64,000 nucleotides of DNA from Natrinema versiforme (GTDB lineage Archaea > Halobacteriota > Halobacteria > Halobacteriales > Natrialbaceae). The first letter of the stretch is position 1; each line of letters starts with the position of its first letter. This document shows positions 1,263-63,894 of this stretch, piece after piece. Under the pieces are notes generated by a model, which was not told the origin of the DNA, did no database searches, and saw nothing but the letters and a program-made list of their open reading frames with translations. The translations under genes and the position numbers were made by a program. The stretch is taken from contig NZ_CP040330.1 of NCBI RefSeq assembly GCF_005576615.1, positions 2,170,001 through 2,234,000 on the forward strand, given 5' to 3'.

Positions 1263-1544
1263 ATGGAACTGCGGGTCACCGAGAGCACCGAGGACGAACT
1301 CTCGATCGAAATCGCCGGCGAGGATCACACATTCATGAACGTGCTCAAGGGCGCGCTGCTCGAGCACGACGACGTGAGCGCAGCGACCTACGACGTCAAT
1401 CCCGAACAGTCGGGCGGCCAGACCGAGCCGATCCTGACGATCAAGACCGAGGGCGCGGACCCCCTCGAGTGTCTCGAGGAAGCCGCCGTCGCGGTCCGCG
1501 AGAAGGCGAACTCCTTCCGGGACGCGTTCGAGGCGGCCGCATAA
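1263..1544 (+). CDS. rpoL: DNA-directed RNA polymerase subunit L (Rpo11)
   Basis: The protein has 93 residues, the normal length for archaeal Rpo11, which pairs with Rpo3 (subunit D) in the alpha-like assembly platform of RNA polymerase. The diagnostic stretch is [24 protein letters not shown], cited here by position (residues 21-44), followed by the typical [17 protein letters not shown] region. The same frame is open far upstream, but only ATG 1263 starts where the family starts. A TATA-like sequence at about 1228-1238 suggests a leaderless message. Confidence 0.95.
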
Positions 1545-1586
1545 GACGCCGACGCGGCCGGCGGTCGATCGCAGCGCTCTCGATCG

Positions 1587-1594
1587 TTCTTTTT
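1587..1594 (+). terminator. T-rich terminator after rpoL
   Basis: TTCTTTTT lies 43 nt after the rpoL stop codon. Archaeal transcription commonly ends at such T-runs. No strong hairpin is needed or seen. Confidence 0.4.
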
Positions 1595-1707
1595 CCGCTC
1601 GTTGCTCGGGTCACGTTTCGGTTCGGTCACGTCTTACAGCGAGATAACGAGCTGTCGTCACCGACGAACTGCGACGCCGAAACGATGCATCAGCCGACTG
1701 TCATCGA

Positions 1708-2577
1708 TCAGCACGCCGCGTAGACGGTGTAGACATCCCCGTTCGGCGCGACGTGAACGTCGACACCTTCGGCGTCGAACCCGGTCCGCATATCGTCGCC
1801 GTACTGCGAGAGCAACGCCGAAGCGATGTCCTCGGCGAGTCCCGATTCGTCGGCGTAGTCGTCAACCGAGATGGCCGTGAGGACCGTCGGTACGCCGTGT
1901 ACCGGGGCCTCGCAGTCGTGATCGAACTCGTCGGCGCTCGCTCCATCCGGATTTCTGTCCTCGAAGTCGCGCACGACGAGCCTGCGGTTCTCGGACTCCG
2001 CGTACGCCGCCAGTCCGTCGTCGTACGTCCGCCGGTCCGCGGGCTCTCGTTCTTCCTCGAGCCGGTCGTGGACCGCTCGGTCCACGGCCTCGAGATCGAG
2101 TCCGGACGCCTCGGAGCCCTGTCCCGGCGCGTCGGGCGGACCGATCCCCGGCAGGATCGTTGGTGAGACGATCCCCGTCGCGAACAGCGCGACGATCACG
2201 CCGATGACGACGAAGATCGGCAGGTAGGGCTTTGCGACCTCGAACCAGCTCGGCGTGTCCAGATCGCGTTCCAGCCCCTCGTAGGTCTGCTCGACCCGCT
2301 CGAGGTCGGGGTTGCCACAGCGAGAACAGGGCGGGGTGTTCCGGACGTGTTCCCGCCCGCAGTTGGGACAGGCCCAGACGTAGTCGGGCCCCGTTTCGAC
2401 GGTCCCGGAGGGGATCGGCTCGCGATCCGCATCGGGAGCGCCGTCGCTCCCGGGCCCGGATCCGTTCTCCTCGTCGACGCGGACGACCGCCTTCTCGAAC
2501 GAGTTATGGCCGCAGTCGTCACAGGGCGGGTCGTTCTCCGCGTGCGGTTTGCCACACCGCGTACACCGCCAGTTCAC
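1708..2577 (-). CDS. membrane protein with two zinc ribbons and a degenerate CAP-like domain (paralogue 1)
   Basis: The protein has 289 residues. The GTG start at 2577 was chosen over an ATG 29 codons upstream because the neighbouring paralogue starts at the same zinc-ribbon position and a TATA-like CTTATCC sits 25-32 nt upstream. The order is: zinc ribbon (CTRCGKPH with a partner CDDCGH), acidic linker, second zinc ribbon (CPNCGREH with CSRCGN), one membrane segment near residues 125-145, then about 130 residues. This last part recalls the CAP/SCP1 fold: an early helix like HDRLEEER and the end motif DVYTVYAAC. The His/Glu residues of active CAP domains were not found. Function unknown. Tandem paralogue of the next gene. 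Confidence 0.75.
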   Translation of the reverse strand: MNWRCTRCGKPHAENDPPCDDCGHNSFEKAVVRVDEENGSGPGSDGAPDADREPIPSGTVETGPDYVWACPNCGREHVRNTPPCSRCGNPDLERVEQTYEGLERDLDTPSWFEVAKPYLPIFVVIGVIVALFATGIVSPTILPGIGPPDAPGQGSEASGLDLEAVDRAVHDRLEEEREPADRRTYDDGLAAYAESENRRLVVRDFEDRNPDGASADEFDHDCEAPVHGVPTVLTAISVDDYADESGLAEDIASALLSQYGDDMRTGFDAEGVDVHVAPNGDVYTVYAAC

Positions 2578-2714: not shown

Positions 2715-3539
2715 TCAGCACGTCGCGTAGAACACGTAGATCGAGCCGTCGACGGCGTGGAGATCGATCCCCTCGCCGTCGTATCCGGACCCAGTGACGC
2801 CGTCGCCCGAGCGCATGAAATCGACGACGCCGTCGGCGAGCGCGGCTTCGTCATCGTAGTTCGCCGTCGACAGGGCGGCCGGTAGCTGGCCTTCCTCGAG
2901 CGTGCCGCGACAGTCGATCCCGAAGTCCCGTAGCGATACCGCCTCGACCCTGGCATCCTCGTACTCGATCGCAACGTACGCGCGATTGTGGTACTCCGCG
3001 TACGCTGCGAGGCCGTCGTCGTACGTCCGCGAGTCGGCGCGCTCGTCCTCGAGGCGGTCGTGGATCAACTCCTCAGTCCGTTCGAGGTCGATCCCCGCCG
3101 CCTCGGTTCCGTCACCGGGCGCATCGGGCGGATCCGGCGTGAAAATCCCGTTTATCATCGTCGGTGAGACGATCCCGGTGGCGAACAGCGCGCCGATCAG
3201 GACGACGACGGCGACCACGGGCAGGTACGGTTTGGCGACTCCCAGCCAGCCCGGCGCGTCGAGATCCCGATCGACATCGTCGTAGGTCTGTTCGGTCTTC
3301 TCGAGAGTCGGGTTGCCACAGCGCGAGCACGGCGGATTGTGCTTGACGTGCTCGCGGCCGCAGTCCGAACAGGTCCAGACGTAGCTCGTTCCGGTATCGA
3401 TCGTGCCGGCCGACGCGTCCGTCGACTCGGCGTCCCCCTCGCGGACGACCGCCTTCTCGAATGCGTTGTGGCCGCAGTCGTCACAGGGCGGATCGTCTTC
3501 CGCGTGCGGTTTCCCACACCACGTGCATCGCCACTCCAT
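2715..3539 (-). CDS. membrane protein with two zinc ribbons and a degenerate CAP-like domain (paralogue 2)
   Basis: The protein has 274 residues and the same layout as paralogue 1: zinc ribbon at residues 4-25 (CTWCGKPH, CDDCGH), second zinc ribbon (CSDCGREH, CSRCGN), one membrane segment, then a CAP-like outer domain ending in IYVFYATC. The N-terminal 30 residues are nearly identical between the two copies while the outer domain has diverged. This suggests a tandem duplication with faster change in the exported part. A strong TATA box (3563-3571) lies 24-32 nt before ATG 3539. Function unknown; a sensor or regulator of the cell surface is a guess. Confidence 0.78.
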   Translation of the reverse strand: MEWRCTWCGKPHAEDDPPCDDCGHNAFEKAVVREGDAESTDASAGTIDTGTSYVWTCSDCGREHVKHNPPCSRCGNPTLEKTEQTYDDVDRDLDAPGWLGVAKPYLPVVAVVVLIGALFATGIVSPTMINGIFTPDPPDAPGDGTEAAGIDLERTEELIHDRLEDERADSRTYDDGLAAYAEYHNRAYVAIEYEDARVEAVSLRDFGIDCRGTLEEGQLPAALSTANYDDEAALADGVVDFMRSGDGVTGSGYDGEGIDLHAVDGSIYVFYATC

Positions 3540-3562
3540 TAATAGCCGAAGGAAACTGGGTG

Positions 3563-3571
3563 TATATAAAT
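3563..3571 (-). promoter_or_regulatory. TATA box of zinc-ribbon paralogue 2
   Basis: ATTTATATA on the minus strand, 24-32 nt before ATG 3539, in an AT-rich patch. Strong match to the haloarchaeal TATA box. Confidence 0.65.
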
Positions 3572-3620
3572 ATAGTGGACCGTGTACGAAAGCGACGGAT
3601 AGCGGTCGAATCGGCCGCTG

Positions 3621-4436
3621 TCAGAGACGAACGGGAACGTCGCGCTCGTCGAGGTAGGCCTTCGTCTCCTCGATCGAGTACTCGTCGAAGTGGAAGATCG
3701 AGGCCGCGAGGCCGGCGTCGGCACCGGCGTCGGTGAACACGTCGTACATGTCCTCGGGACCGCCACAGCCAGAGGAGGCGATGACCGGCGTATCGACGGC
3801 GTCGCAGACGGCTTCCGTCAGGGGGAGGTCGTAGCCGTCTTTGGTGCCGTCCTTGTCGATCGAGTTGACGAAGAGTTCGCCCGCGCCGCGGGACTCGGCC
3901 TCTCGAGCCCACTCGAGGACGTCGATGCCGGTCCCCTCGCGGCCGCCCTTTTTCGTACACTCGAACCAGCAGGACTCGCCGTCGATTTCGACATAGTTCT
4001 CGCCCTGCTCGTCGAAGCGTCGTCTCGCGTCGACGCTGATGACGATACACTGGTTACCGAAGGCTTTCGCGCCCTCGTTGATCAGTTCGGGGCGCTCGAG
4101 CGCGCCGGTGGTGATCGAGACCTTGTCCGCGCCGGCGCGCAGGGTCTCTTTGATGTCCTCGGTAGTGCGGATGCCGCCGCCGACCGTGAGGGGGATGAAG
4201 ACCTCGTCGGCGACGCGCTCGACGACGTCGAGCATCGTCTCGCGGCCCTCCGCGGAGGCGGTGATGTCGAGGAAGACGAACTCGTCCGCGCCGGACTCGT
4301 TGTAGGCCTTGGCCATCTCGACCGGATCGCCGGTGTACTTCAGATCCTCGAAGTTGACGCCGGTGTAGACCGCCGGGTTCCCGTCCTCGTCGAGATCCAC
4401 GTCGATACACGGGATGACTCGCTTGGTCAATACCAT
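3621..4436 (-). CDS. hisF: imidazole glycerol phosphate synthase, cyclase subunit
   Basis: The protein has 271 residues. HisF is the (beta/alpha)8 cyclase that uses ammonia from HisH to turn PRFAR into imidazole glycerol phosphate and AICAR in histidine synthesis. Family motifs are plain: [10 protein letters not shown] at the N-terminus with the first catalytic Asp, LTVGGGIRT at the first phosphate site, VISVDARR with the second catalytic Asp, [10 protein letters not shown], and IASSGCG at the second phosphate site. It stands alone; hisH and other his genes are not in the window. An inverted repeat covers its promoter (4441-4473). Confidence 0.96.
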
Positions 4437-53664: not shown

Positions 53665-55176
53665 TCAGTAGACGGCCGCTTTGATCTCCTCGCGGAGTTG
53701 GTCGAACTGCTCGAGGTAGTCGCGGCGTTCGGCGCGCAGCTCTGCGAGCGCGTCGTCGTAATCGTCGACATGGTCGGGGACGTAGTAGTCCTCGATGTCG
53801 AGTCCCGGGACGGAGTCGGGGATCGTCAACCCCATCTGCTCGTCGTGGCTCCACTCGATGGTGCCGCGGGCGGCCTCGGTGAGGATCGTCACGGACTCGG
53901 TGACGCCGATATCTTTCGATTGCTCGCCGAGGTACCCCGTATTGATCACATAACAGTCGGCGTCGAGGATGTCGATGAGTTCGTGGAAGATGTTCCCTTC
54001 CTCGCCCTCGGGACCGATGATGAAGGGGTTCGTGCCGACGACGCGGATCGACTCGCCGGCCCGCGACGGGTCGCCCGCGCTGGTCTCGATCGACTCGCCC
54101 AGCATGAACGCGACGGCGGCCTGCTCCTCGTCGAGTTTGGCCACCGGCGGCATCAGCGGGTTTCGGGTGATGAAGAAGACCTGATCCAGCCGGTCGAGGT
54201 CGATCTCCTCGTCGGCGCTCTCGAGTTCGTCGCGCCGGATGATCGCCCGGGAGTTCGAGGTGTAGCGGTCCTCGTCGAAGTGGACGGTGCCGTCGTCGTC
54301 GACCGCGACGTTCTCGAGGATCGCCGACTCGGTGGTCGCGGCCTCGTAGAGTTCCGGCTGCTCGTCCTCGTCGAGGCCGATCGTCTTGATGAACAGCCCC
54401 TCGCCCTCGCTGCCGGCGACGGAGCCGTCCGAGAGGAGGCCACAGACGTCGTCCTGCAACATCGCGGCGTCTTCGGGCTCCTCGAGCCAGCAGCCGTGGG
54501 AGGTCAGGGTCGATTTGCCGGTCGCGGAGAGGCCCATGAACACCTGTCCGACGGTCTGGAGTTCGCCGTCAGCGTCGCGGACGCGGACCCGTTTGCTGCC
54601 CGCGTGAAGCCCGAGGCCGCCCTGCTGTTTGATCCGGTACATGTACAGCCGGAGGAACGACTTCTTGGCTTCGCCGATGTAGTCCGTTCCGAGGACGGTC
54701 GTCACGCCGGTGTCGGGCCGGACGCGGATCGCGGTTTCGTCGTAGTCGGGCAGGTGGACGGTGTAGAGATCGGGGTCTCGTCCGTCGGTCGGCTCGAACA
54801 GACTCGCCCACGCGTAGGCGATTCGAGCGTGCTCGACGGGGACGAACAGGCGACAACAGAACGCCGCCTCCGAATGACGCCCCATCAGTCGATCGACGCA
54901 GAGCATCTCGCGGTCGCCCGCGATGTCGAGCGCGTCGTCAACGAGTTCGTGATCGCGGTCGGTAAAGTCGTCGTCGACGGCGTTTTTCGTCAGGTCCGCG
55001 CTCCGCGAGCGGACCTCGCTGACGTACGACGCCGATCCGAACTCGGTCGTCGTCTCGGCGGGCTCGGCGAACTCGCGCAGTTCCTCGAGCGACGGATTGT
55101 ACCGAACGTTCGACGCTGTGGTCGGATCCGGAAGCTGTCGGACCAGCGGACGGGACTCCGTCCCGGTTTCAGACAT
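53665..55176 (-). CDS. pckA: phosphoenolpyruvate carboxykinase (ATP)
   Basis: The protein has 503 residues. It turns oxaloacetate and ATP into PEP, the entry step to gluconeogenesis. The kinase P-loop is VFMGLSATGKSTLTSH, followed by the second metal region DDVCGLLSDGS, GEGLFIKTIGL and RNPLMPPVAKL; VLGTDYIGEAKKSFLR carries the active-site Lys pair. It is shorter than bacterial ATP-type enzymes (about 530). ATG 55176 is clear. Divergent from the coiled-coil gene with 295 nt between them. Confidence 0.94.
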   Translation of the reverse strand: MSETGTESRPLVRQLPDPTTASNVRYNPSLEELREFAEPAETTTEFGSASYVSEVRSRSADLTKNAVDDDFTDRDHELVDDALDIAGDREMLCVDRLMGRHSEAAFCCRLFVPVEHARIAYAWASLFEPTDGRDPDLYTVHLPDYDETAIRVRPDTGVTTVLGTDYIGEAKKSFLRLYMYRIKQQGGLGLHAGSKRVRVRDADGELQTVGQVFMGLSATGKSTLTSHGCWLEEPEDAAMLQDDVCGLLSDGSVAGSEGEGLFIKTIGLDEDEQPELYEAATTESAILENVAVDDDGTVHFDEDRYTSNSRAIIRRDELESADEEIDLDRLDQVFFITRNPLMPPVAKLDEEQAAVAFMLGESIETSAGDPSRAGESIRVVGTNPFIIGPEGEEGNIFHELIDILDADCYVINTGYLGEQSKDIGVTESVTILTEAARGTIEWSHDEQMGLTIPDSVPGLDIEDYYVPDHVDDYDDALAELRAERRDYLEQFDQLREEIKAAVY

Positions 55177-55471: not shown

Positions 55472-58400
55472 ATGGATTACGGTCTCGATATCGGACCGGA
55501 GGCGATCCGGGCCGTCACCGACGCGGGCGACGGCTCGACGATCGAATCGGTCCCGCCGGTCGCGATACCGGTCGACGACGCGGCGCTCTCGGGGGAGGGC
55601 CACACGATCGAGGAGGACGGAACGACGTACGCGGTCGGCTCGGACGCTCGAGCGGCCGCTGAGGAAGCGGCGGAAACGCCCAGATCGCTGTTCGAGAACG
55701 GGGTACTCGCGACGGGGACGACACCGTCCGCGACGGCGGTCTTGGACGCGCTCATTGACGACATCCTGTCGGACGCGACGGATGGCCGACTCTGTTACAC
55801 GACGCCGGGCCCGTTCGCCGACGCGTCGGCGTCGACCGACGCCCACCGCGAGGCCGTCGAGTCGGCCCTCGCCGACCGTGGGGTCGATGCGACGCCGATC
55901 AGTAAAGGGTTCGCCGTCGTCTACGACCAACTCGCGGCCGACAACTACACCGGCCTCGGCATCTGTCTCGAGTCCCAGACGACGAGCGCCGCGCTCGCGT
56001 ACTACGGCGTTCCGGCGATGGCCGTTTCGATCCCGAAGGGCCGCGAGTGGATCGTCGAGCGCGCGGCGAGCGACACCGGTCACGCCCCGTCGCAGGTCGC
56101 CGGCGTGCTCGAGGAGTTCACGCTCGACCCGGACGCGGCCGCGGGCGGGATCGAGAGCGCGCTCGCGGCGGCCTACGACGACCTGCTCGCCGCGTTGATC
56201 GACGCGATCCGGGACGAGGCCGACGAGAGCGACGTCCAACAGGGGCTGTCCGTCCCGATCGCGATCGCCGGCGAGGGCGCGATCGAGGGCGTCGAGTACC
56301 TGATCGGCGGTCGGTTCGACGCGGCGACGCTCCCGTTCTCGGTCCGGGGTGTACGACTCGCGGACGGCCCCGCGACGAGCGCTGCCACCGGCGCGCTCGC
56401 GGCGGCTCGAGACGATGTCGAGGCCGATGTGACGATCACCCGGTCAGCCGCAGGTTCCGAAAGCGACGCCGACGGCACCAACGAACCCTCGAGCGCGGAC
56501 GAGGCGGCCCCGGCGAGCGGGGCGACCGAATTCGCGTTCGACGACGGATCGGCCGCCGACCGGGCGACCGAGCGCACCGACGACGCCATCGACCAGTTGT
56601 TCGACCGGCTCGCGAACCGCGACGCCGAGATCGAGTCCGTCCGCGAGGACCTCGAGGCCCTGTTCGACGACCTCGAGTACATCGAGGAACGAACGGCCGC
56701 GGCCGAAACGGTCGACGAACTCGACGAGCGCCTCGAGTCGTTCGCAGACGACCTGACCGATCTCGAGGCCGAGAGCGAAACCCACGCGAGCGACGACGCG
56801 GTCGACGACCTCGGTGACGATCTCGAGGATCTCGACGACGACCTCGGGGAGCTCTCGGAGTCGCTCGCGGCGCTAACGGACGAGGTGGGCGATCTCGACG
56901 CCGAACTCGAGGCCGTCGAGACCGCCGCGGCCGACGAGCGAGGGGCCCTCGACGAGCGGCTCACAGACGCGACGGCCGACCTCGAGACCGTCGCCGAGCG
57001 GACGGATGCGGTCGAAGACGGGCTCGACGCCGTCCGGACGGACCTCGACGAGATTCGGACGACTCTCACCGATCTCGAGGAGACCGCCGCGACCGAAGCG
57101 GCCCTCGAGGAGGTGACCGACCGCGTCTCCGAACTGACCGGCGACCTCGACGATCTCGAAGCGGCCGTCGATCGCGCCGAAACGCGAATCGACGGCGTCT
57201 CCGGCCGACTCGAGGAACTGAGCACGCGGATCGACAGCGTGTCCGGCCGGCTCGAGGAGCAATCCGAGCGGACCGACGCCCGGTTCGACGCGGTCGAATC
57301 GACCGTCGACGAGGAGATCGCGGCCGTCGATGACGAACTGGAGACCGTCCGCGAGACGGTAGACGACCGCGCTGCGGCCCTCGAGGCCGTTCGGGACGTG
57401 ATCGACGACCTCGAGGAAACGGCAGCGGACGACGAGCGAGTCGATGGGATCAGCGACGATCTAACGGACCTCGAGGCGGCGGTGTCGGACCTCGACGATT
57501 CGATCGCGGGCGTCTCGGAAATGCTGGATGACCTCGAGTCGCGGACGGCCGCCGTGGAGACCGTCGACGGACTGGCGGCCGATCTCGAGGACACCGACGA
57601 GGACCTCGACTCCCTCGAGTCGGAGCTAGGGTCACTCGAGGAAACGCTCGAGCAGCGACTCGACGAGACGGCCGCGGACCTCGAGAGTCGGATCGAGACC
57701 GTGACGGACGCGATCGACGACGATCTCGCGGGACTCGAGGCGACCGTCGAACGGCTCGAGGACGAAACGGTCGCAGGCGACGAACTCGACGAGGTGTACG
57801 ACTCGCTTGCCGACGCGACCGACGAGATCGATGCGGTGGCCGCGTCCGTGGATACCGTTGCGACGGACCTCGAGGCCGTCGCGGACGAGGTGGACGACCT
57901 CGACGACGCGCTCGAGGCGGAAGTGAGCGAGATCCGGACGGCCCTCGATGACCGGGTGAGCGACGTTCGATCGACGGTCTCCGAGGATGTCGACGAGGTC
58001 GAGGAAACCGTTTCCGGCCGGATTGATGACGTGGAGGCGACGCTCGACAAGCGCGTGACGACGGCCCGAACGACGCTCGAGGACGATATCGAGACCCTCC
58101 AAGCCGACCTCGAGCGCGAGACTGAATCGCTCACCGAGACGGTCTCGGAGACCGGCGACCGAGCCGCCGACAACGACCGGCGGCTGGACGAACACGACGA
58201 CCGGTTCGAGGCGGTCACGTCGACGCTCGAGGCCGTCGAAACCGATATCGACGGCGTGAGCGACGACCTCGCGACGCTCGCGGATCGGGTCGACGAGGCC
58301 GCCGAAATCGCCGACACAGCCGCGAGTGACGAGGACCTCGTGGCGATCGAGGACGACGTCTCGGGACTCGCCGATCGCCTCGAGTCGCTTCGAACGGATC

Positions 58401-58861
58401 ACGACGACCTCGCTGGGGCCGTCGACTCGCTCCCCGACGACTCGGCGATCGAGACGCTCGATAGCGACGTCCGGACCCTCGACGGCGAGGTCCAGACGCT
58501 CCGTGGCGACGTACAGGCGGCCGATGACGATATCGACTCGATGGACGAGCGCGTGACGACGGTCGCCGAGCAGCTTTCGGGGCTCGAGCAGCAGATCGAG
58601 GCGATCGAGAATCGAGTCGACGATGTCGAGGATGGGGCGGAACAAGCCGAAGAACTCGAGGCGATCCGGGCAGACCTCGAGGCCGTTCGGGCGGACGCAA
58701 CCGCCGAGCCGTCGCTTCCGCAGGCGGTCGTCGCGGGCGGTGGCGGCGCGGGCGTCGTGGCCGGAAGCGTCGCCGCGCTCGCGGGCGATGTGGTGATCGG
58801 TGGCAGCGCGGCCCTCGTTGGCCTCGTGCTGCTCGGAGTCACAGTGGTGCTCGCTCGCTGA
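55472..58861 (+). CDS. actin/Hsp70-like head, long coiled coil and C-terminal membrane anchor in one protein
   Basis: The protein has 1129 residues. Residues 1-315 follow the actin/MreB fold: phosphate-1 strand DYGLDIGPEAIRAV (2-15), connecting motif PISKGFAVVYDQL (142-154), the phosphate-2 position GLGICLESQTTSAAL (161-175) where DxGxxT is degenerate, and an adenosine-type PIAIAGEGAIEGVEYLIGG (262-280). Residues about 365-1075 are acidic heptad-like helix, followed by two short hydrophobic segments near 1083-1128. ATG 55472 was chosen as the head begins there; the frame is open to 55262. Function unknown; a membrane-tethered cytoskeletal or chromosome-linked scaffold is possible. Confidence 0.78.
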   Translation: MDYGLDIGPEAIRAVTDAGDGSTIESVPPVAIPVDDAALSGEGHTIEEDGTTYAVGSDARAAAEEAAETPRSLFENGVLATGTTPSATAVLDALIDDILSDATDGRLCYTTPGPFADASASTDAHREAVESALADRGVDATPISKGFAVVYDQLAADNYTGLGICLESQTTSAALAYYGVPAMAVSIPKGREWIVERAASDTGHAPSQVAGVLEEFTLDPDAAAGGIESALAAAYDDLLAALIDAIRDEADESDVQQGLSVPIAIAGEGAIEGVEYLIGGRFDAATLPFSVRGVRLADGPATSAATGALAAARDDVEADVTITRSAAGSESDADGTNEPSSADEAAPASGATEFAFDDGSAADRATERTDDAIDQLFDRLANRDAEIESVREDLEALFDDLEYIEERTAAAETVDELDERLESFADDLTDLEAESETHASDDAVDDLGDDLEDLDDDLGELSESLAALTDEVGDLDAELEAVETAAADERGALDERLTDATADLETVAERTDAVEDGLDAVRTDLDEIRTTLTDLEETAATEAALEEVTDRVSELTGDLDDLEAAVDRAETRIDGVSGRLEELSTRIDSVSGRLEEQSERTDARFDAVESTVDEEIAAVDDELETVRETVDDRAAALEAVRDVIDDLEETAADDERVDGISDDLTDLEAAVSDLDDSIAGVSEMLDDLESRTAAVETVDGLAADLEDTDEDLDSLESELGSLEETLEQRLDETAADLESRIETVTDAIDDDLAGLEATVERLEDETVAGDELDEVYDSLADATDEIDAVAASVDTVATDLEAVADEVDDLDDALEAEVSEIRTALDDRVSDVRSTVSEDVDEVEETVSGRIDDVEATLDKRVTTARTTLEDDIETLQADLERETESLTETVSETGDRAADNDRRLDEHDDRFEAVTSTLEAVETDIDGVSDDLATLADRVDEAAEIADTAASDEDLVAIEDDVSGLADRLESLRTDHDDLAGAVDSLPDDSAIETLDSDVRTLDGEVQTLRGDVQAADDDIDSMDERVTTVAEQLSGLEQQIEAIENRVDDVEDGAEQAEELEAIRADLEAVRADATAEPSLPQAVVAGGGGAGVVAGSVAALAGDVVIGGSAALVGLVLLGVTVVLAR

Positions 58862-58956
58862 GTCACTGCGGTCTGGTACGACCTCGCCCGGGGTGCTGGC
58901 GGAACGGCGCGACCGCTCGAGGGAGCGGCTACTGGTGTGGCCGATTCCGGAGGCCG

Positions 58957-59088
58957 TTAGTCGCGGACCAACTCGGCGTTTCGCATCTCGCCCCCACACT
59001 GCTGACAGGTGCTGAGGAGGGCGTCCCCGACGGTCTCCCGCCGCCCGCACTGGACGCAGACGTACTCGCGTCGCTCCTCGAGTGTCAT
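58957..59088 (-). CDS. 43-residue rubrerythrin-type zinc ribbon protein
   Basis: ATG 59088 to TAA 58957 encodes MTLEERREYVCVQCGRRETV and GDALLSTCQQCGGEMRNAEL ending VRD. CVQC and CQQC make a single zinc ribbon like the rubredoxin part of rubrerythrin. GTTAAC (59113-59118) is about 25-30 nt upstream and the 12-bp palindrome ACTCTCGAGAGT (59099-59110) lies between it and the start. Role unknown. Confidence 0.7.
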   Translation of the reverse strand: MTLEERREYVCVQCGRRETVGDALLSTCQQCGGEMRNAELVRD

Positions 59089-59098
59089 ATGATACCAT

Positions 59099-59209: not shown

Positions 59210-60436
59210 TCACTCTCGTTCGGAAAGCAGGAGCAGGCCGGCGAGGAGCGTGGCACCGACGATGGCCGACGCGAGCAGCCAGAACGCGGCCCTGAAGCCG
59301 GCGGTTTCCGAGAGCGCGCCGACGATCGCGGGCGCGATCGCGCCGGCACCCATCAACAGCGTGCGGACGACGCCCAGTCCCCCGCCGGCGACATCGTCCG
59401 GGATGGCGGACATCAGGTACGCGCCCCTGACGGGCCGGAAGCCGTGCGAGCCGATCCCGACGGCGACGAGCAGTCCGCCGAGTAGGACCGGGTCGCTCGT
59501 CCCGGTCAGCGAAACGAACGCGACCAGCGCGACCGATGCGAACCCGAGCGTCGCGACGATGATAGGCAGTCGCCCCACCCGGTCGCTGAGGTTGCCGGTC
59601 ACCAGCTGTACCAGACTCGCGAGGAAGAGGCTACTGTAGAGCAGGCTCGCGGTCGCCGTCGTGAGCCCCGCTTCCGCGGTGAGGTATCGCGGCGCGAACG
59701 CGACCAACCCGTTGTAGGTAAACGAGAACAGGATCGTCACCATGGCGAACGTCGAGAACCGCCAATCGCGGAAGAGCGACGCGTACTGTGCGATTCCGCC
59801 GCCGCGCCCGCTCGAGGTCGGTTCGACCCCACTCGATTCGTCCGGGAGTCGGCTGGGAACCCGAACCCGGAACGCCGCCGCGAGCGCCACCCCGACCAGC
59901 CCGCCGCCCAGAAAGAGCAGCCGCCAGCCCGCAACGGGGCCGAGGGCCAGCGACGCGACGCCGACGACGACGGCCGGGGCGACGACGCCGCTGAGCGCGC
60001 CGAACGTGTCCAAGACGCCGAGCGCTCGCCCCGTCCGGGCGGGGTAGGCTCGAGAGAGGAGGCGGACGGCGACGGTCTTGTGCGCGCCGGTGCCGGCTCC
60101 GATCACGAGCATCGCGCCGACGAGGACGACAAAGGGCGAGTCGACGACCAGCGCGAGCGCGGCGGCAGCCGCGACGGCTGCGCCCGCCGTGATGACGGTC
60201 ACCGAGCCGAGCCGGTCTGCGAGCACGCCGGAGGGAAACTGCATAGCCGCGTAGACGAGCAACAGTCCGGAGAACGCGGTACCGAGGACCGCGTCGGAGA
60301 CGCCGTAACTCGCCTGAAACGAGTCGAACAGCGGCGGAAAGGCGTAGCGGAGAAATTTCGCGAGAAACCAGATCGCGGCGGTCAGGACAAGGGCGTCGTA
60401 GCGCGCGAGCCGTCCGGCCGTTCGTCGAACCGACAT
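59210..60436 (-). CDS. major facilitator superfamily transporter
   Basis: The protein has 408 residues with twelve hydrophobic helices. The loop 2-3 signature appears as PSGVLADRLGSVTVI and repeats in the second half as NLSDRVGRLPIIVA; a long cytoplasmic loop holds SRLPDESSGVEPTSSGRGGG. Substrate unknown; drug or metabolite export is usual for this type. ATG 60436 was chosen: the first helix starts soon after, and the longer frame adds a Cys/Pro-rich lead unlike the family. Confidence 0.85.
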   Translation of the reverse strand: MSVRRTAGRLARYDALVLTAAIWFLAKFLRYAFPPLFDSFQASYGVSDAVLGTAFSGLLLVYAAMQFPSGVLADRLGSVTVITAGAAVAAAAALALVVDSPFVVLVGAMLVIGAGTGAHKTVAVRLLSRAYPARTGRALGVLDTFGALSGVVAPAVVVGVASLALGPVAGWRLLFLGGGLVGVALAAAFRVRVPSRLPDESSGVEPTSSGRGGGIAQYASLFRDWRFSTFAMVTILFSFTYNGLVAFAPRYLTAEAGLTTATASLLYSSLFLASLVQLVTGNLSDRVGRLPIIVATLGFASVALVAFVSLTGTSDPVLLGGLLVAVGIGSHGFRPVRGAYLMSAIPDDVAGGGLGVVRTLLMGAGAIAPAIVGALSETAGFRAAFWLLASAIVGATLLAGLLLLSERE

Positions 60437-60620
60437 TCGTTCGGTCCGTGGGTCGCGACCGGACGACCGAGTATCCACCGATCCCGTCTCCGTCCGCCGG
60501 TAGCAGACGCAGGGAAAGCAATCGGGTCCGTGGGTCAACGGGCGCGGTGGTACGGTGGCACAGTCAGGCGGCGACCGAGGGTAACACAACGCGGAAGGCC
60601 GAGCGGTCCGGAGCGGTCGT

Positions 60621-61529: not shown

Positions 61530-62000
61530 TCAGTCGAAATCGGGCAGGTCCTCGGGCGGTTCGTACTGGGCCTCCCAGTCGACGTACTCCTCTTTGAGCG
61601 TGACCGAGACGATCTGGCCGAACTCGGTGAGTTCGGCGTTGATCGAGGAGACCGTCCCCCACGTGTCGAGGTCGGGGTGGTACTCGCGAGCCTGCCAGTC
61701 CTCCGGGATGCCGGGCGCGTGGTAGCCGACGCGATCGGCAAAATCGTCCCAGAAAAAGTCGAAGCCGGCGAAGAGATCAAGGTCGCGAGCGATCCCGTAC
61801 TCGTTTTCCTCGAGGTCCGTGTCGTCTCGCCACTCGTCGAACGCTTCCGCCCACGCGCCCTCCTCGAGGAACGCCTGTAGCTCCTCGCGGCGGTAGTCGA
61901 TCTCCTCGGCACCGTCGGCGCTGACGGTCGCGTCCTCGTACTCGTTCGGGTCGACGAACTCCAGCTCCGGCGGCTCGGGGGGTTCGACCTCGAGTGTCAT
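61530..62000 (-). CDS. haloarchaeal acidic protein of unknown function, copy A
   Basis: The protein has 156 residues, very acidic, no signal or membrane segment. Residues 40-110 (REELQAFLEEGAWAEAFDEW ... VGYHAPGIP) match copy B at 63448-63894, so the two are paralogues. The C-terminal part, with VSSINAELTEFGQIVSVTL, also matches. Start ATG 62000 fits the other copy. The two copies flank the M20 peptidase gene on the same strand. Confidence 0.7.
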   Translation of the reverse strand: MTLEVEPPEPPELEFVDPNEYEDATVSADGAEEIDYRREELQAFLEEGAWAEAFDEWRDDTDLEENEYGIARDLDLFAGFDFFWDDFADRVGYHAPGIPEDWQAREYHPDLDTWGTVSSINAELTEFGQIVSVTLKEEYVDWEAQYEPPEDLPDFD

Positions 62001-62069
62001 GGTCGGTCGTAGGTCGGGTTCCCGGATAAGAATTCCCACCTCGCAGCGGGCAGTGCCGGGCAGTACCGG

Positions 62070-63335
62070 TCAGTCGCCACGTACCCGCGCAATCTCGAAG
62101 GGGAGCCGAGCGTAGACGAGCGCGTTCCGGCGGAGCTTGTCGACGGTCGTGTACTCGTCGACCGCGTGTGCCGTCCCGGTTCCGGTCGCGAATTCGACGG
62201 TCGGCACCCCGTTGTCCCGGAAGACCTGCGCGTCGCCGCTCCCGGTCGCGAACCGCCGGTACACCGGCGTCGGGAGGACGTCCTCGGCGACGGACGTCAC
62301 CGCCCGGACGATTGCGGACTCGGGGGCCGTGTACGAGCCCGCCTTGCTCGTGACGTTCGCGAGCGTCGCGCCGTCTCGCTCCGCGAGGCAGTCCCGGATC
62401 AGCGACACGATCGCCGCGGCGTCGACCGACGGCAACGCGCGAACGTCGAGCGTGGCCTCGGCGCTCGAGGGAACGGTGTTGACCGCGTTGCCGCCGCTGA
62501 ACGTGCCGAGGTTGACCGTCGGGGAACGAAACAGGGCCGTCGCGGTCTCTCGATCGAGGTGGGTCGCGTAGTACTCGATGCTCTCCTCGAGGATCGCCTC
62601 GTCGATGCCGTCGGTCGGCGCGTCGAACCGCCGCAGCCGCCGCCGACACGTCTCGACCAGTTCGTAGAGGGCGTCGATCGCGTTCTCGCCGAACATCGGC
62701 CGCGAGCCGTGGGCCGCGCGGCCCTCGTACCTGATCGTGGGCCAGACGTATCCCCGGTCGCCGACCGCGATCGAGTTGCTCTCGCGTCGGCCGGTCGCTT
62801 CGCCGATGACGCAGGCGTCGGGGGACAGTCGATCGCTTCGTAACCGCGTGCTGAGCCCGACCTCGCCGCCGACTTCCTCGTCGCTCACGAGGGCGAACTG
62901 GAGGGTGACTGGCGGCTCGGTGTCGGTCCGATCGTACGCGCGGGCGACCTGAATCATCGAGCCGATGGCCCCCTTCATATCCGTCGCGCCTCGACCGTAC
63001 AGTCGATCTCCCTCGATCTGACCGAGCGGGTCGGACTCCCACTCCGCCTCGCGAAACGGAACCGTATCGAGGTGGCCGTTGTACAGGAGCGTGAAGTCGC
63101 GTTCGCCCGGCAGCGTCGCGACGAGGTTCGGTTTCATCGGGTCGACGGCGAACCGCTCGCAGTCGAAGCCGAGCGACGCGAACTCGTCTTCGAGCCACTC
63201 GGCGAGCGTCCGCGTGTTCCCCGGTGGGTTACTGGTGTCCGCGCCTACGAGCCGACGGGTCGTTTCGAGCAGTTCTCGGGGGTGCTCCTCGAGAGACGCA
63301 CACACCCGACCGACGCGGTCTCGCTCGTCGTCCAT
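62070..63335 (-). CDS. M20-family peptidase/deacylase (ArgE/DapE-like)
   Basis: The protein has 421 residues. Zinc motifs are LYNGHLDTVPF, GRGATDMKGAIGSM with bridging Asp, SDEEVGGEVG with the catalytic Glu, VIGEATG and, at the end, EFATGTGTAHAVDEYT. Dimerisation domain in the middle with GRAAHGSRP. Members hydrolyse N-acyl amino acids or dipeptides; substrate not certain. ATG 63335 fits the family. Confidence 0.9.
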   Translation of the reverse strand: MDDERDRVGRVCASLEEHPRELLETTRRLVGADTSNPPGNTRTLAEWLEDEFASLGFDCERFAVDPMKPNLVATLPGERDFTLLYNGHLDTVPFREAEWESDPLGQIEGDRLYGRGATDMKGAIGSMIQVARAYDRTDTEPPVTLQFALVSDEEVGGEVGLSTRLRSDRLSPDACVIGEATGRRESNSIAVGDRGYVWPTIRYEGRAAHGSRPMFGENAIDALYELVETCRRRLRRFDAPTDGIDEAILEESIEYYATHLDRETATALFRSPTVNLGTFSGGNAVNTVPSSAEATLDVRALPSVDAAAIVSLIRDCLAERDGATLANVTSKAGSYTAPESAIVRAVTSVAEDVLPTPVYRRFATGSGDAQVFRDNGVPTVEFATGTGTAHAVDEYTTVDKLRRNALVYARLPFEIARVRGD

Positions 63336-63447
63336 GTCGGCTCGCTTCGACGGTCGGCGACTAAATCCTCGTCCCGGAGCCTGCGTGGCACCGCGATCGG
63401 GGCGGAGTCGCCACCGCTCGGTCACCGGAGGCGTCGGGTCGCCGCGC

Positions 63448-63894
63448 TCACTCCCACGAATAGCCGAACTCGTTCCCGTCGCTATCGATGTAGTCGCTCT
63501 CGAGTACGTCGCTGACGATCCGGCCGAGCGAGTCCAGTTCCTCCTCGATGTCCTCGATATCGTTGTCGTCGAGGTCGGTGGCCCCCTCCGCGTCCGTCGG
63601 AACCGGCGGCGACCGGTAGCCGACGTCCGACGCGGACTGGTTCCAGTAGAAATCGAACAACTCGAGCAAGCCGAGTTCGCGGACGGTCCGAAACTCGCCG
63701 TCGGTCAGGTAGGTGTCCGCGGCCCACTCCTCGAAGGCGTCCTCCCACGCGCCCGCTTCCAGCAGCCCGGCCAGTTCCTCGCGACGGGCCTCGTCGCCCG
63801 TCCACTCCTCGGGCTCGTCGACGGCGTCGTAGTCGCTCGGGTTCTGCGGTCCGTGGAGCGTCGGCGGGTCTGGAATCTCGACATCGAGTGACAT
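63448..63894 (-). CDS. haloarchaeal acidic protein of unknown function, copy B
   Basis: The protein has 148 residues. It shares with copy A the run REELAGLLEAGAWEDAFEEW, LFDFYWNQSASDVGYRSPPVP and a C-terminal IEEELDSLGRIVSDVLESDYID. No known domain. It probably arose with copy A by duplication around the peptidase gene. The last 106 bases of the window, beyond its start, contain no supported gene. Confidence 0.7.
   Translation of the reverse strand: MSLDVEIPDPPTLHGPQNPSDYDAVDEPEEWTGDEARREELAGLLEAGAWEDAFEEWAADTYLTDGEFRTVRELGLLELFDFYWNQSASDVGYRSPPVPTDAEGATDLDDNDIEDIEEELDSLGRIVSDVLESDYIDSDGNEFGYSWE

Follow-up and report, generated by a model that had tools for sequence, protein, structure and literature searches.

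A long volactin paralogue with degenerate active-site residues, a coiled-coil rod, and a predicted membrane anchor in Natrinema versiforme

What could a protein do that carries an actin-type head at one end, two hydrophobic segments at the other, and a long acidic coiled coil between them? Such a protein is encoded in the window analyzed here, a 64-kb stretch of the Natrinema versiforme genome, and we refer to it as the long form, to distinguish it from the short volactin of the same genome. The described haloarchaeal actins are volactin (PMC10869688) and salactin (PMC10746226), of which volactin governs the shape of Haloferax cells and their tissue-like development; the passages of the published work that bear on this do not explain how its filaments are joined to the membrane. 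A paralogue of volactin that is conserved, catalytically dead, and anchored in the membrane would be a candidate for that connection. Work in H. volcanii would miss it, since volactin is the only actin homologue identified there (PMC7617734).

Architecture and family of the long form

We place the start of the gene at the Met codon at 55472 because orthologues align from that Met; the reading frame stays open upstream to 55262, nearly all orthologues begin at this same residue, and the stop codon lies at 58859-58861. The initial annotation, made from the sequence alone, had read an actin/Hsp70-type head, a long acidic coiled coil, and two C-terminal hydrophobic segments in this order, and both its coordinates and its layout are correct (Table 1). 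It had also called the arrangement unfamiliar among cytoskeletal proteins; we likewise found no matching architecture, and no description of a long, membrane-anchored volactin, in the literature searched (open-access papers only). Large antisense open reading frames run at 56173-58317 and 57632-59098, and such frames are expected opposite GC-rich coding sequence.

Table 1. Positions of the long-form gene, its parts, its neighbors, and related volactin loci (window positions unless a contig or locus is named)
Feature	Position	Strand	Basis
Long form, complete gene (1129 aa) for a pseudo-actin head of volactin type, a coiled coil, and a predicted membrane anchor	55472..58861	+	ORF
Head, residues 1-316, actin fold, PF25216	55472..56419	+	Pfam; AlphaFold2; PDB matches
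Linker, residues 317-360, low complexity, Ser/Ala/Asp/Glu-rich	56420..56551	+	Sequence
Acidic coiled coil, residues 361-1075 (715 aa)	56552..58696	+	Periodicity vs shuffles
Hairpin hydrophobic segment 1, residues 1085-1104	58724..58783	+	Sequence; conserved in orthologues
Hairpin hydrophobic segment 2, residues 1107-1127	58790..58852	+	Sequence; orthologue hydropathy peak usually 2.2-3.0
Lys145, replacing catalytic Glu (volA E152, MamK E143)	55904..55906	+	MamK alignment; column counts
Degenerate phosphate-2 loop, residues 165-172, CLESQTTS vs SFGAGMTN in volactin	55964..55987	+	Column counts
PEPCK_ATP (PEP carboxykinase-like) gene, upstream	53665-55176	-	
MFS_1 transporter (MFS-like) gene, downstream	59210-60589	-	
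DUF7139 and short volactin gene pair, same genome	L002:343-1266 and 1363-2394	+	
Short volactin copies of genome G106	C3:353944, C5:9952, C4:12424-13352		
Viral volactin loci	L180-L263		

The head matches the Pfam family Volactin (PF25216) with residues 1-312, covering the whole profile (1-321 of 321) at 405-410 bits against a curated cut-off of 35 bits; volactin, which the initial annotation listed for comparison, is the named family of this head. Neither MreB/Mbl (PF06723, Pfam) nor Hsp70/DnaK (Pfam and NCBIfam) gave a match to the head up to an E value of 1, and the genome has a separate DnaK at C2:1933810. With four sequences in the alignment, AlphaFold2 gave a pLDDT of 41.6; repetition with 62 sequences gave a pLDDT of 92.5 and a pTM of 0.91. 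Among solved structures, this model is closest to MamK (Z 27.5 over 287 residues), followed by BeeR (26.2), MreB (~25), and actin (~24), and in Foldseek searches it also matches FtsA structures at lower rank. Neither the single head sequence nor a 16-row profile of long-form heads matched an actin among PDB sequences, while a wider volactin profile recovered MamK (E 1.5e-8), MreB (1.4e-4), and FtsA (6e-4). Profile and predicted structure thus narrow the originally suggested actin/Hsp70-type head to an actin fold; structure prediction had been named in advance as the main test of that suggestion, which survives it, the model of residues 1-316 being of the actin type.

The coiled-coil region contains a single Pro in 715 residues and is 35% Asp plus Glu, and its Leu, Ile, Val, Met, and Phe residues recur with a period of 3.5 residues at a power of 4.4, whereas 500 shuffles reached no more than 1.47. 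A reach of about 0.1 micrometre, as estimated earlier, is arithmetically correct (715 x 0.149 nm), provided that the coil forms one unbroken helix. The rod has no conserved length, varying from about 160 to 880 residues among long forms, and complete long forms span 575-1295 residues in total; this freedom to vary argues against a ruler-like function and for a spacer. A hydrophobic C-terminal end is present in every orthologue except L068 and L035, both of which are cut by contig ends, and the two segments are predicted to insert into the membrane as a hairpin. No separate coiled-coil/anchor protein sharing this tail was found in the N. versiforme genome. Matches of the coiled coil to SMC, Rad50, ASRP, apolipoprotein, and baculovirus proteins reflect generic coiled-coil similarity and were discarded.

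Active-site residues and selection on the head

Active-site positions were assigned by HMMER alignment to MamK, in which volA E152 corresponds to MamK E143 and volA S172 to MamK D161; when either MamK residue is replaced, ATPase activity or the turnover of filaments is lost (PMC5059902). All short volactins (58/58) and all viral volactins (58/58) in the alignments have the catalytic Glu in its column, and none of the long forms (0/54) does; these instead carry Lys (21), Arg (15), Thr (10), Ser (3), Gln (2), Pro (2), or Ala (1). Both glycines of the SFGAG motif are invariant in short volactins (the second in 58/58), while Natrialbaceae long forms keep the first in 21/49 and the second, Gly169, in 3/49.

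The initial annotation had predicted a non-hydrolyzing head from its degenerate phosphate-2 loop. This degeneracy is real, but the loop of volactin is itself unusual, with Ser in place of Asp. The phosphate-2 Asp that the MamK ATPase needs is Ser in volactins and Asn in salactin-like proteins, and volactin and salactin are both described as dynamic in published work, volactin in vivo (PMC10869688). Since volactin is already dynamic with Ser for Asp, the lost Glu is the stronger sign, and its absence from every long form strengthens the original prediction. Based on these residue losses, the long-form head appears to be a catalytically dead pseudo-ATPase, which should not cycle with ATP because it lacks the catalytic Glu along with most glycines that bind phosphate.

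Comparison of N. versiforme with seven congeners gave dN/dS values of 0.23-0.38 for the head, 0.32-0.65 for linker plus coil, and 0.17-0.42 for the tail, and in each pair the head had a lower ratio than the coiled coil. Judged by its own ratios, the head is under constraint and is no decaying remnant.

Distribution, pairing with short volactin, and gene neighborhood

The short volactin of the same genome (C2:2166202-2167164, 461 bits) is 36% identical to the long-form head; the long-form gene lies ~59 kb from volA and shares no operon with it. Across Natrialbaceae, the long form is present in 86/121 genomes, all of which have two or more matches, the additional one being read as short volactin; a single match, read as short volactin alone, occurs in 34/121, one genome has no match, and in none (0/121) does the long form stand alone. 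Because 120/121 of these genomes carry volactin, co-occurrence within the family says little, and because ~29% of them lack the long form, volactin evidently works without it. Outside Natrialbaceae, frames of 780-909 residues with a head ~30% identical, a coiled coil, and a hydrophobic end occur in families f10 (two genomes) and f7 (three genomes), and all five genomes also carry short volactin. Two quick trees place the long form on one side of a single branch (support 99 and 97), which is compatible with a single origin, and in the short-volactin tree f7 and f10 group near Natrialbaceae. Genome G106 (family f3, g33) has two equal-scoring short volactins on separate contigs and a third that is apparently split.

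The PEP carboxykinase-like neighbor of the long form has homologues at about 22 of the loci compared, and the MFS-like neighbor at about 26. Their recurrence in many Natrialbaceae indicates that the locus is old and supports orthology; it implies no functional link. Directly upstream of the short volactin, ~3.6 kb before the window, is a gene for a DUF7139 protein (PF23600) with hydrophobic segments, which is a possible membrane partner. Elsewhere in the window, an M20-type peptidase gene (62070-63425, -) is flanked by genes for two paralogous small acidic proteins (61530-62039, -, and 63448-63894, -), 41% identical and without a Pfam match.

Volactin relatives are also encoded by viruses. A search with profile A4 found them in 316 IMG/VR stretches on >300 viral contigs, many over 100 kb, and the huge uncultured phage records LR745208.1 and LR756511.1 in GenBank hold one homologue each. 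Four viral volactins tested against PF25216 scored 212-306 bits, and the viral proteins retain all volactin active-site motifs; two that were tested against PHROG families had no match at E 1e-3. In viral contig L181, volactin (2899-3987, +) has tail and neck proteins among its neighbors, and one 297 kb viral contig has two volactin copies (L197 and L216). No long form was found on viral contigs.

Possible roles and comparison with known systems

We propose, tentatively and at close to an even chance, that the long form is a pseudo-actin tether: it would attach to volactin filaments by binding, capping, or anchoring them and would fasten them to the membrane. The C-terminal hydrophobic hairpin would be seated in the cell membrane, and the acidic coiled coil, which probably joins two or more copies into an oligomer, would hold the heads up to about 100 nm into the cytoplasm. 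The head would keep its actin fold without ATP cycling and, through a putative contact with volactin, would bind or cap volactin filaments or enter them as an inert subunit. A dynamic volactin filament could thereby be coupled to the membrane, much as FtsA couples FtsZ. A filament-membrane link is the leading idea because of the systematic pairing with short volactin; a dead head, a variable rod, and a conserved anchor, always beside an active volactin, together suggest a linker. It is more doubtful whether haloarchaea evolved once a dedicated pseudo-actin whose filament-binding head, long spacer, and anchor link their own actin filaments to the membrane. We know of no domain of life in which filament anchoring is solved by a single protein of this head-spacer-anchor design.

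These proposals assume a head that does not turn over nucleotide. That it retains activity as a nucleotide switch or ATPase, by some changed mechanism, seems highly improbable. In favor of such activity, phosphate-1 Asp6 is retained in 47/49 Natrialbaceae long forms and one Gly of the adenosine-loop GG in 49/49 (the second being a gap in 49/49), and volactin itself, as noted above, is dynamic in vivo without the phosphate-2 Asp; on the other hand, the catalytic Glu is gone in 54/54, Gly169 is nearly lost, and an acidic residue at 167 occurs almost only with Lys or Arg at 145 (22/23 cases; Fisher p 6e-5, a statistic that ignores phylogeny). The 145-167 pair ranks 243 among 25,930 column pairs for covariation, a hint that the two side chains may form a salt bridge within the phosphate site.

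Other readings dispense with volactin as the partner of the head. Heads that retain the actin fold under constraint, many of them gathered at the membrane by their anchors, might polymerize with one another and form a static filament or patch attached to the membrane, much like an FtsA or bactofilin self-scaffold, and MamK without hydrolysis does give static filaments (PMC5059902). We regard this as unlikely; a self-scaffold has no need of strict pairing with volactin, though it is compatible with it. Alternatively, the coiled coil and anchor could be the working part, serving as a tether for DNA, the envelope, or another protein, or as a mechanical rod, with the head docking to a partner other than volactin. 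Most of the length is indeed coiled coil, generically similar to SMC and Rad50 coils, and an effect on DNA partitioning is known for another haloarchaeal actin, salactin (PMC10746226). The rod, however, is more variable than the head, both in length and in sequence, the SMC similarity is generic, and no DNA-binding domain was found in the long form, so that we think a rod- or tether-centered function quite unlikely.

Whichever role applies, the long form is a variant within the known volactin family, with its anatomy and the loss of its active-site residues established. Salactin of Halobacterium salinarum shares the actin fold of the long-form head and belongs to a separate family, salactin-like proteins falling below the PF25216 cut-off with a partial profile match where the long-form head scores 410 bits; unlike the long form, those examined keep the catalytic Glu, and salactin is described with a disordered tail at its N terminus and lacks both a coiled-coil rod and an anchor (PMC10746226). 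Volactin (VolA, HVO_2015, Haloferax volcanii) belongs to PF25216, as does the long-form head over its full length. Soluble and about 340-370 aa long, it forms dynamic filaments and has intact Glu, SFGAG, and GGT motifs, whereas the long form lacks these motifs and adds a coiled coil and an anchor. MamK and MreB, the closest solved folds, are both active ATPases, and MreB meets the membrane by an amphipathic helix or loop without a long coiled coil. Arcadin-4/Rkd-4 and the haloarchaeal SMC-like proteins Sph and ASRP are long archaeal coiled coils with generic profile similarity to the rod and no actin head, and arcadin-4 is a separate protein alongside crenactin. The principle would be that of FtsA, in which a protein with an actin fold holds a dynamic filament at the membrane. 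FtsA binds ATP and contains a 1C domain; its partner is a tubulin homologue and its anchor is short and amphipathic, whereas the long-form C-terminus is a hydrophobic hairpin. If the long form is a linker, it would add to FtsA a second, independent example in which an actin fold serves to link filaments to the membrane.
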